Shown in pieces: positions 8,760 through 55,226 of a DNA stretch of 64,000 bases. Below the pieces are notes generated by a model that did no database searches, was not told the origin of the DNA, and saw only the letters and a list, made by a program, of their open reading frames with translations. The first letter of the stretch is position 1. Every line of letters begins with the position of its first letter. The translations under genes and the position numbers were made by a program. This stretch comes from Thermococcus sp. (GTDB taxonomy: Archaea > Methanobacteriota_B > Thermococci > Thermococcales > Thermococcaceae). The stretch is taken from the NCBI RefSeq assembly GCF_027023865.1, contig NZ_JALVUC010000019.1, forward strand, positions 317,803 through 381,802, in the 5' to 3' direction.

Positions 8760-9773
8760 CTAACGCCTTCTAACCTTCTGGGCAACAAGCACAGTTGTTG
8801 CCAGCAAGACTAAAAAAGCAGGTCCGCAGATGTCCTTTTTGCTAGAAGTTTGGGGCGATGCTGATGTTTTGTTCGTTCTTTCAACGGTGTTTCTGGGAGA
8901 ACGCGTGATGCCCCTCTGGGCAGGCATTTGAGTCTTAGTTTTGTTTAAATTTAAAGGGGTATTCTCTCGAGGGGTAGCTGACGTGCAGGCCGTTACATTG
9001 ACGATTTTAACGCTCTTGGGGAACCAAAAAATGGGAACGGTGGTGTTTGGTGGGAGTCTGTTGAAAAAGTCCTCTAGAGTGGTGTTCATGTTCAGATAGA
9101 TCACAGTTACATTTCTTGCGTGATTCCCCCGTCTGAGAGTGAAATAAACTGGAAAGACACTTGAATTTGCTAAAATAACAGATGGACAACATTCATGGGC
9201 CCAGCACCATGCGTTCTTGCTCATCGTGACACAGATGTCATTCATCGGTGTTTCAATCTGCCAGCCGTTTATCACTGCGGTGGAAGTACCATTTTTTGAA
9301 AGTTGGGACCAGTTACGGCTGACTGGTTCAACGCAAAAACTCCTCTGGTTAAACTTATAGACCTTCTCGATACCCTCAGATGAATCCTGAGGGTAAGCCG
9401 TTATATTCAAATACCAGCTCCTGTTAACGAAAACTACCCCGTTATAGTCCACGAACGTTGAGTTCGTTGCTTTTGTAAAGTCCAAAGAGTATAGTCGAGA
9501 GCCGTTGAAATAGAGTAGAGATCCACCTATGGGCGTCATGTCAAAGTCATAGCAAAAGCCAGCCTTACAGTCGGGCGCATATTGGAAAAGTTGAAGATAA
9601 ACGAAAGCATCGCTTCCGCTTGATATAATGGAGTATTCAACCCTGTAAACGTAATCCTCTAATGGGCCATGCTTCAAGTCCACGTTGTTGCAGGTTTCGT
9701 TTGAGGCTTGAGCTGGAACAACGCTGAGAAGGAAAATTAGGGATATGAAAACAGCCTCAAACGTACGGTTCAT
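8760..9773 (-). CDS. CGP-CTERM surface protein, partner of the DUF4855-like gene
   Basis: The 337-residue secreted protein has a signal peptide (about residues 1-23, ending VVPAQAS) and a C-terminal sorting signal: KKDICGPAFLVLLATTVLVA then KVRRR, the CGP-CTERM motif of Thermococcaceae surface proteins (Cys316-Gly-Pro). Before it is a Thr/Ser/Pro/Asn-rich stalk. It has many N-x-S/T sequons (NGT, NSS, NTT, NKT) and several cysteines (CCPS, CDF), suggesting a glycosylated, disulfide-bonded exported protein. Its start overlaps the end of the upstream DUF4855-like gene by 17 bases, so the two are translated together. Function unknown. A second cassette of the same design lies at 53575-55226. Confidence 0.78.
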   Translation of the reverse strand: MNRTFEAVFISLIFLLSVVPAQASNETCNNVDLKHGPLEDYVYRVEYSIISSGSDAFVYLQLFQYAPDCKAGFCYDFDMTPIGGSLLYFNGSRLYSLDFTKATNSTFVDYNGVVFVNRSWYLNITAYPQDSSEGIEKVYKFNQRSFCVEPVSRNWSQLSKNGTSTAVINGWQIETPMNDICVTMSKNAWCWAHECCPSVILANSSVFPVYFTLRRGNHARNVTVIYLNMNTTLEDFFNRLPPNTTVPIFWFPKSVKIVNVTACTSATPRENTPLNLNKTKTQMPAQRGITRSPRNTVERTNKTSASPQTSSKKDICGPAFLVLLATTVLVAQKVRRR

Positions 9774-10794
9774 TGAGTTCCCTCCTGCATTGCTCTTGGA
9801 GGGTGTCTATTACTTTGAAATCTGTGCTGAAGTAGTATGCTAAGTTTGATGGTTTCCATCCGACATCGTTTAGCGCTCTAACGTAATCCAGGGCGTAATC
9901 AATCGCCTTCTGTGGCTGGTGTTCTCTGCAGTGCTCATAACACTTTTCAAGGTTGCAGTCGCACTTCATGCCCTCAGGGCAATTATACCCATTGCCACAG
10001 TTGCAGGGAATTCCCAGTATGGTCCTGTCGGCTTCCATTTCTATTGAAATTCTTGTGTTTGGGTTTTTAATGTTCCTCGGGAGTTCCTCATAAACCCAGC
10101 GGATCTTCTCGACTAACTTCTCGTATGAGTACGGAAACGTTTGTTTATGCCCGTTAATGTACTCGATACAGACGCCGTTCTGATAGTAGTTCGGCTGGAC
10201 GAAAACGTAGTCAAAATAACCACCAATATTGAGAATTCCATCGAAAGAATCCTTACGCAAGTAGGTTACACCCCTATCCCCAGTCGCCGGAATCCAAATG
10301 AATTCCTGGCCATGATTATGAATGTAGTTACTCATGTACTGGATGAACTCCTTCGTAACGTGGGCCTCATCGTAAGAGGTAGTCTGAAGGCAACTCTCAT
10401 AACTCCAGTAGAATCCAGTAATGTCAGTGTTATCAACGCTCAGAACACCATCAATCCAGCCCTTGTAGTATGAGTTCACGCCAGAGTACTCAAACGGTAT
10501 CTGCACTTGATCCCGCGGAAATCCCTCGGGGCGGCTAAAGGGTATTGTTATATACACTGGCATCCCATATATGTAGTTGGACACCCATCTTGCAAATTCC
10601 CTCCCATCGTTGTATCCCGAATTATAGAATGGTCCACTGTACTTAATCCCCCTCCCTTCTCCGCTGAGAATGACAATCCTGTCAAAACCCCTCTCTTTAA
10701 AGTCTTCAACGGTGGCTTTTCTACTCCCCACAGTCATCCTCGACTCGTAGTCAGAACCATTCCACGTAACCCACCATAGTGCGAACTTTGCCAC
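9757..10794 (-). CDS. DUF4855-like protein, cassette A
   Basis: The 345-residue soluble protein has no signal peptide. It resembles DUF4855, thought to adopt a glycosidase-like TIM barrel. Motifs: ITGFYWSYES (about 124-133), FIWIPATGDRG, YVFVQPNYY, ISIEMEAD with two acids suitable for a barrel active site, a cysteine cluster (CNCGNGYNCPEGMKCDC plus EKCYEHC) and AYYFSTDF near the end. The same motifs in the same order occur in the protein at 54423-55226. The GTG start (10794) follows GGTGATGACCT. GTTTTTATAC near 10825-10834 is the probable TATA box. Reaction and substrate are unknown. Confidence 0.72.
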   Translation of the reverse strand: MAKFALWWVTWNGSDYESRMTVGSRKATVEDFKERGFDRIVILSGEGRGIKYSGPFYNSGYNDGREFARWVSNYIYGMPVYITIPFSRPEGFPRDQVQIPFEYSGVNSYYKGWIDGVLSVDNTDITGFYWSYESCLQTTSYDEAHVTKEFIQYMSNYIHNHGQEFIWIPATGDRGVTYLRKDSFDGILNIGGYFDYVFVQPNYYQNGVCIEYINGHKQTFPYSYEKLVEKIRWVYEELPRNIKNPNTRISIEMEADRTILGIPCNCGNGYNCPEGMKCDCNLEKCYEHCREHQPQKAIDYALDYVRALNDVGWKPSNLAYYFSTDFKVIDTLQEQCRRELNEPYV

Positions 10795-10912
10795 AGGTCA
10801 TCACCATCGTGAGTACTGTCGAGTGTATAAAAACTATTTGAATTTCTACTTGTTAAAATTGCACGGACCAAAAATTGGAGATAAAAACCAGTTACGCAGT
10901 CTCCAAAAGAGT

Positions 10913-53574: not shown

Positions 53575-54423
53575 TCAGGCTGATTTTCTCCTTATCAGAA
53601 GCCAGATTGTCAGGAAAACGAGAAATAACAACACTGCAAGGGTTCTAGGGTTGATGTTTCGTGTGTTCTTCCCAATCTCGAAAGCACTCAGGTTTCCGTC
53701 GTAGAGGTGAAGCGTCCCATTTGACGCGATTAGGCATTCCCGTCCGTTGCAACTGATTGCGTCGCAGGAATCTGTTATCTCCTTCGTGCCGTTCTCGGAG
53801 TGCTCGATGAGACCGTTGGAACACAGAAGGATTTTGCCGTTAAGGACATCAAAATCTTCCGCGCAGTTGTCAAGTTGTAGAGTCCTCTTAAAAGCCCCGT
53901 TGGAGTAAACGTAGACTCCGGTGCAGTTCATAAAGTAGGGCTTTCCGTTCCTGACCTTTACTTTCACTCCGTTGATGAACCCGCATGGTATGGCTTTCTC
54001 GACGCTTCCGTTCGGAGAAACAAAGAGAAGAGAGCAGTCCCCCATCATCGCTGATTCTGAGGTGGGAATATAGTAAGTTCCGTTCAGGTAGGCGAAGCCC
54101 CTGCAGTCGTAGCTATGAATCTTGAAGAGAAGGGAGCCGTTGATGGTCTGGAAGATCACATTATCTGGGGTGAACGTTTCAACGATCCACCCGCTTCCGT
54201 TCCACGCTAAACCGCAGGGGGTCCCGTTGAGGTGGAGTGGAACCTTTGAGAGATGCCCGTCGGGCACCACCGTCGTCAGGTAATAGCTTCCGTTTTCTTC
54301 GCTCAGGAAGGCCCAGGTTGTTCCGTTCCAAGATACACTTATTGCATTTCCTAAGCCCAATGTAGATAATTCAAAAGTAAACAGGAGGAGAATGACACTT
54401 CTAAATACATTGATTCTTTTCAT
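53575..54423 (-). CDS. Exported, membrane-anchored partner of the DUF4855-like gene, cassette B
   Basis: The 282-residue protein has an N-terminal signal or anchor (VFRSVILLLFTFELSTLGLG) and a C-terminal membrane helix (TLAVLLFLVFLTIWLLIRRK) with a basic end. It is built of repeated short beta units with N-x-S/T sites (SVSWNGTTWAFLSEENGSYY, GLAWNGSGWIVE, CFNG-like turns), perhaps a propeller. It has many cysteines. Its start shares one base with the DUF4855-like stop (TAATG). There is no CGP-CTERM, unlike the partner at 8760-9773. Function unknown. Confidence 0.72.
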   Translation of the reverse strand: MKRINVFRSVILLLFTFELSTLGLGNAISVSWNGTTWAFLSEENGSYYLTTVVPDGHLSKVPLHLNGTPCGLAWNGSGWIVETFTPDNVIFQTINGSLLFKIHSYDCRGFAYLNGTYYIPTSESAMMGDCSLLFVSPNGSVEKAIPCGFINGVKVKVRNGKPYFMNCTGVYVYSNGAFKRTLQLDNCAEDFDVLNGKILLCSNGLIEHSENGTKEITDSCDAISCNGRECLIASNGTLHLYDGNLSAFEIGKNTRNINPRTLAVLLFLVFLTIWLLIRRKSA

Positions 54424-55226
54424 TACCTCACCACTTTTAGATAGTTGTTGAGGTCTGTGCTAAAATAGTAAACTACATATGGGAACTTCCCGAACCTTTT
54501 CTCAATGTCACTAAGTGACACTAAATAATCTCTTGCTCGCTCCGTACACTTTGTGGCGTTACATCCGTACCCACAGTGCTCGCAATACCCTCTAACTGCT
54601 GAGTCCCATTCCATCTCGACACCGAACCCATTTTCATGGCAGAACCACATGAACTCGTTTAGATCTTGATAATTCATACCATTTGGTCTGTAGTAATCAC
54701 CTTTAGTGTCGGTGACCATATAGTAATGGGGTTGCGGAGCTACATGGGTAAATCCCACTTTTTGTACACATTTTCTTGTTAAATACAATGGATCACGGTC
54801 CTCCCATCTTTCTATGGGTATCCACAATACAGGTTTTTTGTAAGTGTCTCTAATGTAACTCACAATGTTTTTTATTTTAGTAGAATCACTAGACACGGCC
54901 CCTGCTCCCTCCAGACTGAAGTAGTATCCTGTTACCCTCCTAGCCACAGTAGAGGATTCGACTTTAATTATCCAATCCTTCATATCCTCGAGAGTCCTGG
55001 GTGTTTTAGTAGTATCATAATACGGGATTTCCACCCATATTTCAAATCCCAAACCGGATTCTGCTACGAACTTTTTCATGTCACTCAAGAGCGTAGAGAA
55101 ATCCGAATATTTTCCTTCGTTGGTAGACAATAGCACAACTCCATCGAAATATTTTATAAACTCTGCAATTTGTTCTTTAGGTGTAATTTTCTTTCCCGCA
55201 TAATAAAACAGTGCTAGTCGAGTCAT
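54423..55226 (-). CDS. DUF4855-like protein, cassette B
   Basis: The 267-residue protein has no signal peptide and shares motifs in the same order with the protein at 9757-10794: VTGYYFSLEG, LWIPIERWEDRD, HVAPQPHYYMV, VEMEWD, a cysteine cluster (CEHCGYGCNATKC) and VYYFSTDL near the end. It is shorter at the N-terminus. The sequence is visibly AT-richer than the flanks, with many AT-ending codons, suggesting recent acquisition. TTTATATA (about 55257-55264) is the TATA box. Confidence 0.7.
   Translation of the reverse strand: MTRLALFYYAGKKITPKEQIAEFIKYFDGVVLLSTNEGKYSDFSTLLSDMKKFVAESGLGFEIWVEIPYYDTTKTPRTLEDMKDWIIKVESSTVARRVTGYYFSLEGAGAVSSDSTKIKNIVSYIRDTYKKPVLWIPIERWEDRDPLYLTRKCVQKVGFTHVAPQPHYYMVTDTKGDYYRPNGMNYQDLNEFMWFCHENGFGVEMEWDSAVRGYCEHCGYGCNATKCTERARDYLVSLSDIEKRFGKFPYVVYYFSTDLNNYLKVVR

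Follow-up and report, generated by a model that had tools for sequence, protein, structure and literature searches.

A DUF4855-like gene coupled to an exported surface-protein gene forms a conserved multicopy cassette in Thermococcaceae

Across the Thermococcaceae, genes for DUF4855-like proteins are linked to genes for exported, C-terminally anchored proteins, and this linkage is well supported as real, conserved, and far above chance. We assembled 85 non-redundant, near-full-length DUF4855 open reading frames (ORFs) from this family and scored each as paired if a following ORF at -60 to +60 nt encoded hydrophobic segments at both ends, a signal at the N-terminus and a helix at the C-terminus. 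By this rule 79 of the 85 DUF4855 genes had a partner; among 454 long control ORFs drawn from these loci, 18 did. The six unpaired genes comprise one DUF4855 frame that stops at a contig end (L056), one whose exported partner lies at +111 (L065), one that is frameshifted (L110), and three in which a partner is present with its start or C-terminal helix outside the pairing rule (L117, L122, L126). The original prediction had proposed that a DUF4855-like gene and an exported partner form a linked system and are conserved together, an idea that would fail if the two rarely co-occurred; the proposal holds up, as the two genes are nearly always together across the family. A search of the open literature, mostly outside subscription journals, returned no description of a DUF4855–surface-protein pair, and the pairing seems not to have been described previously.

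The first example, cassette A, lies in the window, by which we mean the whole 64,000-nt stretch of Thermococcus sp. DNA that was analyzed. Its DUF4855 gene (9757..10794, minus strand, 345 aa) starts with GTG, lacks a signal peptide, and encodes a predicted (beta/alpha)8 barrel; the protein matches PF16147 at 33.8 bits, above the curated cut-off of 27. The exported partner gene (8760..9773, minus strand, 337 aa) encodes a signal peptide, a beta-rich ectodomain, a Ser/Thr-rich stalk, and a CGP-CTERM-like tail. The partner starts within the end of the DUF4855 gene, and its ribosome-binding site GGAGGG (9780..9785, minus strand) sits inside the DUF4855 coding sequence. Both ORFs are where they had been predicted, and the overlap is exactly 17 bases (ATGAACCGTACGTTTGA; 9757..9773, minus strand). 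Upstream of the pair are a DUF4855 ribosome-binding site, GGTGAT (10800..10805, minus strand), the TATA element of the cassette promoter, TTTTTATA (10826..10833, minus strand), and an operator-like inverted repeat of the GTAA-N-TTAY class, GTAACTGGTTTTTAT (10881..10895, minus strand). The two cassette A proteins are equally Cys-rich, with 10 Cys each.

The junction between the genes takes several forms: overlaps of -17 (ATGAACCGTACGTTTGA), -16 (e.g. ATGTCCAGACTGGTAA), -8 (TATGTATAA), -4, or -1, or a short gap. Of the 79 paired genes, 12 have the 17-nt form and 21 the 16-nt form. Most pairs overlap, with partner ribosome-binding sites (GGAGGG, GGTGAG, and others) within the DUF4855 coding end. 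A second exported gene follows the partner in 12/85 cases, and no obvious fusion of DUF4855 and partner into a single protein was seen among the open-frame lengths listed.

Cassette B, in the same window, had been predicted to be identical in design to cassette A. Its layout is indeed the same, with a DUF4855-like gene (54423..55226, minus strand, 267 aa) followed by an exported partner gene (53575..54423, minus strand, 282 aa), but the identity does not extend further: the genes overlap by 1 nt, and the partner, which has propeller-like repeats and, at its C-terminus, a helix without CGP, belongs to another family (F6). The cassette B DUF4855 protein scores 16.5 bits against Pfam (below the cut-off of 27) and 225 bits against profile A1, which we built from 12 Thermococcus DUF4855 members; it was assigned to the DUF4855 set through A1 and not through its Pfam score. 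The same genome holds more copies, partly intact and partly broken (C20:48 kb, C25:48 kb, C19:257 kb, C25:167 kb, and C3:141 kb). Those that we examined have unrelated housekeeping genes as neighbors, without a linked glycan transporter.

The exported partners are variable. They fall into 16 sequence families, which might suggest unrelated partners, a finding that would have weakened the idea of a linked system; profile comparison, however, joins most of them, and all have a signal peptide and a C-terminal anchor. Families F0-F4 and F8-F12 form one superfamily, and a second, propeller-like superfamily (F5/F6/F7/F14) is suggested by the same comparison, with only the F5-F6 link well supported. 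The partners contain 974 sequons against 259 expected by shuffling, a 3.8-fold enrichment, and to judge from these sites they are presumably N-glycosylated. Modeling of the cassette A partner gave a fold of low confidence (pLDDT 65.6), for which Foldseek found no significant match.

The cassette A partner had been described as an exported, Cys- and sequon-rich CGP-CTERM protein. The signal peptide, the 10 Cys, 15 sequons, and the motif itself are all there: the tail (ICGPAFLVLLATTVLVAQKVRRR) consists of ICGP, a hydrophobic helix, and RRR. The TIGR04288 (CGP_CTERM) model, however, scores it at 17.7 bits, below the curated cut-off of 21, such that the motif is present and formally sub-threshold. 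The combination of Cys-Gly-Pro, hydrophobic helix, and basic C-terminus is found in the partner of cassette A only, not in that of cassette B, for which a TIGR04288 search gave no match. More widely, 31 of the 79 paired partners carry the CGP motif and over half do not. The cassette A partner thus resembles the CGP-CTERM surface proteins of Thermococcales (TIGR04288) in its signal peptide, Ser/Thr-rich stalk, ICGP, hydrophobic helix, and basic end, and differs from them in its sub-cut-off tail and in having a coupled enzyme-like gene 5' of it; over half of its paired counterparts differ by lacking CGP altogether.

The cassettes share regulatory sequence as well as gene order. A conserved region of ~110 nt, of which there are several types, lies 5' of DUF4855 and is common to cassettes at other sites. 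Ribosome-binding sites for DUF4855 were found in 57/70 copies (5.6 expected) and TATA-like elements also in 57/70 (26.9 expected). The shared promoter includes an inverted repeat (GTAA-N-TTAC). In the form GTAA-N3-8-TTAY, 32 of the 72 upstream regions contain it, where mononucleotide shuffling predicts 4.5, and most of these repeats lie at -101 to -122. A DNA search with an 84-nt consensus of one promoter type recovered cassettes and cassette remnants, along with two short matches (22 and 30 nt). These two contain the repeat GAGTAATCGGTTTTTACC and lie 5' of a metallocarboxypeptidase-like gene (G028 and G078; L304 and L305, about position 1500). The same site holds a cassette or lone partner genes in other genomes, and the repeat there may be a site for a shared regulator or a trace left by a cassette since lost.

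The distribution of the cassette is patchy. Profile A1 matched in 38 of 61 genomes of the genus, with up to about 10 matches per genome, many of them with stops or truncations, and in 53 of 115 genomes in a sample of the phylum, nearly all Thermococcaceae and one from another family of the class. This last genome, the only relative outside the Thermococcaceae (L179), has a broken DUF4855 and, after it, an exported ORF that contains propeller-like repeats and ends in a C-terminal helix; a lipoprotein-like gene (L179, 203-955) adjoins the broken frame and overlaps it slightly. One cassette copy is on a plasmid of T. peptonophilus (NZ_CP014751). In the public annotation, the gene after DUF4855 in this copy (L199, 12001-13702) codes for a 199-aa hypothetical protein that begins 214 nt downstream. 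At the equivalent locus L090, a 287-aa frame, signal peptide included, is present near the DUF4855 stop, and the public start of the L199 partner therefore looks wrong. We also considered and rejected a viral or phage gene, as neither viral contigs nor phage records matched and PHROGs gave nothing significant, and a known defense gene, as no PADLOC model matched.

The two genes have mostly been inherited together. Mapped on the DUF4855 tree, the partner families require 21 changes, compared with 55.5 for shuffled labels, suggesting joint inheritance of the pairs with exchanges mainly around the cassette A clade. Synonymous divergence (dS) is often unequal for the two genes of one orthologous pair (for instance 0.27 vs 1.18), an imbalance indicative of recombination at the junction. 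The partner diverges much faster than DUF4855, and omega ranges from 0.06 to 0.31 for DUF4855 and from 0.13 to 0.43 for the partner; with both below 0.45, these sequence comparisons indicate that both genes are under purifying selection.

Sites at which one of the genes has been lost reveal the direction of dependence. The cassette A site is an empty convergent intergenic region in many genomes, holds full cassettes in two (G010, G013), and remnants in two others (G001, G008). In genome G080 (L252/L306), the promoter is joined directly to the last ~10 DUF4855 codons and the partner is intact; this near-complete deletion, which keeps the promoter and the ribosome-binding site (L306, about 1307-1430), lies at the genomic site of cassette A. 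Genome G081 (L294) likewise retains promoter and partner and has lost DUF4855, and two more genomes (G035, G070) have intact partner-type genes with no DUF4855 match. In G001, which is without any DUF4855, the partner at the cassette A site is broken. As intact DUF4855 genes nearly always have a partner and partners outlive DUF4855, the exported protein appears to be the core of the cassette and the barrel its accessory.

What might the accessory protein do? AlphaFold2 modeling of the cassette A protein yielded eight alternating strands and helices in order (pLDDT 86.6, pTM 0.87), and only residues 266-291, a Cys-rich loop, are uncertain. Residues 125-130 form strand 4, with Glu133 after it (codon 10396..10398, minus strand; putative acid/base), and residues 248-254 form strand 7, with Glu254 at its end (codon 10033..10035, minus strand; putative nucleophile). 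Glu133 is conserved in 84/85 sequences, Glu254 in 84/84, and Asp256 in 83/84; Trp113, Trp167, Gln200, and Tyr203 are invariant across the alignment of 85 sequences, and Tyr204 is near-invariant. DUF4855 is thus predicted to be a TIM barrel with the Glu placement of clan GH-A glycosidases. This loop of low confidence, which connects strand 7 to the helix after it (about codons 268-292; window 9910-9990), is packed with Cys in cassette A (CNCGNGYNCPEGMKCDCNLEKCYEHC), and loops of a related CxxC type occur elsewhere.

Several observations set limits on the likeness to clan GH-A (e.g. GH53, GH51, GH5), which lies in the (beta/alpha)8 barrel and the conserved Glu residues after strand 4 and at strand 7. 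Foldseek against the PDB gave weak matches, led by glycosidases of GH18, GH53, GH51, GH5, and GH1 (TM ~0.44, identity 10-13%, E about 3e-4 to 1e-3). A Pfam scan returned DUF4855 alone and no GH family, and a sequence search for solved relatives gave none that was meaningful. In clan GH-A, Asn usually stands directly before the acid/base Glu; it is absent before the strand-4 Glu of DUF4855, where cassette A reads GFYWSYES in the A1 alignment. Compared with PF16147 at large, the first gene of cassette A scores above the curated cut-off, with the match limited to the central part of the domain, and the archaeal members differ in lacking a signal peptide and in being coupled to an exported partner. 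The only paper that our open-literature search found to name DUF4855 lists the B. thetaiotaomicron DUF4855 gene BT0442 near SusC/D-type genes and an alpha-N-acetylglucosaminidase (PMC10434189), and the Bacteroides member thus has glycan-utilization genes nearby. Bacteroidetes polysaccharide utilization loci likewise link a GH-like gene to an anchored surface protein, but the cassettes are dispersed, multicopy two-gene units without a transporter or an enzyme signal peptide.

The DUF4855 protein had been predicted to be soluble and free of a signal peptide, and this proved correct. In cassette A, an in-frame stop two codons 5' of the GTG, which has its own GGTGAT, leaves no space for a signal peptide. 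A hidden signal was sought across 70 copies and none was found: a median of 4 in-frame residues precede the conserved start, and the median N-terminal hydrophobicity is 0.33, against 2.95 in partners. Export by hitch-hiking through the Tat pathway was likewise rejected, with TatC in 0/10 Thermococcaceae genomes and in 11/14 controls.

Composition points in another direction. DUF4855 proteins contain about 16-17% K+E+R, about 29% N+S+T+Q+Y, and about 2% Cys, compared with about 23%, about 20%, and 0.65% in GC-matched cytosolic-type controls. N+S+T+Q+Y reaches 18-21% in leaderless GH57/GH1 and 23-28% in secreted GH57 enzymes, and DUF4855 stays extreme both after GC matching and against leaderless GH1/GH57. 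Judged by composition, DUF4855 may work outside the cell or be an unusual enzyme of the cytosol; alternatively, a secreted-type composition can reflect a carbohydrate-active fold, and we place no reliance on it as a sign of secretion. Sequons are not enriched in DUF4855 (195 vs 165 expected), and secreted GH57 enzymes are likewise sequon-poor; the Cys count is even in 47 of 85 proteins, giving no sign of pairing. We consider it improbable that the leaderless protein acts outside the cell by an export route that, with Tat absent, depends on the coupled Sec-exported partner. Such partner-dependent export would account for a secreted-type composition (low in charge, high in Asn/Ser/Thr/Gln/Tyr, and Cys-rich) without a signal peptide, and if DUF4855 does reach the surface, a new export route is implied.

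We tentatively favor, at rather less than even confidence, a cassette in which an exported glycoprotein is the core and DUF4855 an accessory glycosidase-like enzyme for glycans that the partner carries or binds. The cassette would be a surface module of Thermococcaceae, made up of two and sometimes three genes under a conserved promoter of its own. Its core product would be a surface protein with a variable ectodomain, exported by Sec, heavily N-glycosylated, and anchored at its C-terminus. The first gene would supply a leaderless glycoside-hydrolase-like TIM barrel, held at a fixed ratio to the partner through translational coupling, and this enzyme would cut or transfer sugars on glycans decorating the partner or bound by it. 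Glycosylation itself, the activity and substrate of the enzyme, and its place of action (the cytosolic face or the surface) are what we infer. What the sequences and the model show is the cassette anatomy, the near-constant pairing and the coupling, a modeled barrel with its Glu pair, the sequon excess in partners, the one-sided dependence, and the shared promoter; purifying selection on both genes and partner families that track DUF4855 clades also speak for this view. A role in surface glycans had been put forward in the original prediction and stands as a reasoned argument, drawing on the conserved Glu pair in a predicted barrel, the sequon-rich partners, and the setting of BT0442 (PMC10434189). 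Several points count against it. The structural likeness to GH families is weak, and the Asn that precedes the acid/base in clan GH-A is missing. Partners work, or at least persist, without DUF4855. Location is a further difficulty, given that Tat is absent and DUF4855 sequons are not enriched; we know of no way for a leaderless enzyme to reach surface glycans.

The missing signal peptide would be explained if the pair were catabolic, with the surface protein capturing an environmental glycan (like SusD or a solute-binding protein) and the leaderless enzyme degrading the imported oligosaccharide in the cytosol. The predicted GH-like barrel and the glycan-utilization genes near the Bacteroides DUF4855 gene (PMC10434189) are consistent with this. 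Neither the cassette nor a fixed neighborhood contains a transporter, however, with copies scattered among unrelated housekeeping genes, and for a nutrient receptor the partner's much faster divergence, relative to the enzyme, would be unusual; we regard this explanation as unlikely. The patchy distribution (38/61 genomes of the genus), the up to about 10 copies with many pseudogenes, the plasmid-borne copy, and the partner exchange at the junction with unequal dS within pairs would instead suit a variable surface module directed against viruses or competitors (a receptor decoy, kin recognition, or a toxin with a cytosolic partner), whose ectodomain diversifies while DUF4855 processes or neutralizes the partner. 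We think this rather unlikely, as there was no PADLOC match and none in viral or phage collections, partner omega is below 0.45, an immunity protein is not expected to be the conserved half, and partners persist without DUF4855.

One-sided dependence, tight translational coupling, and the lack of a signal peptide would also fit a non-catalytic DUF4855 that serves as a cytosolic helper, such as a chaperone or targeting factor, for the nascent exported partner. Yet the near-invariant Glu133, Glu254, Asp256, Gln200, Tyr203, Tyr204, Trp113, and Trp167 resemble an active site, and a single DUF4855 clade pairs with several partner families, making a helper decidedly unlikely. Genomic hitch-hiking, in which a mobile unit carries both genes by chance without a functional link, would suit multicopy, patchy, and often decayed cassettes whose shared promoter moves along, but is very improbable given coupling kept over deep divergence in several overlap forms, a maintained ribosome-binding site in the first gene, purifying selection on both genes, and the presence of a decayed pair outside the Thermococcaceae, in a further family of the class.

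We found no assigned role for most Thermococcales CGP-CTERM surface proteins, or for any DUF4855 protein. A conserved, multicopy promoter-to-anchor module now joins the two and points to a probable enzyme with candidate catalytic residues, as placed by the model. The DUF4855 deletions behind a kept promoter are natural experiments, and Thermococcales are genetic model archaea; the role of the module is directly testable. Lone partner-type proteins of ~500-610 aa with two ectodomain copies also adjoin a mutase-like gene, without DUF4855, in several genomes (L246, 4608-7964; L247, 4065-7387; L248, 3865-5487).
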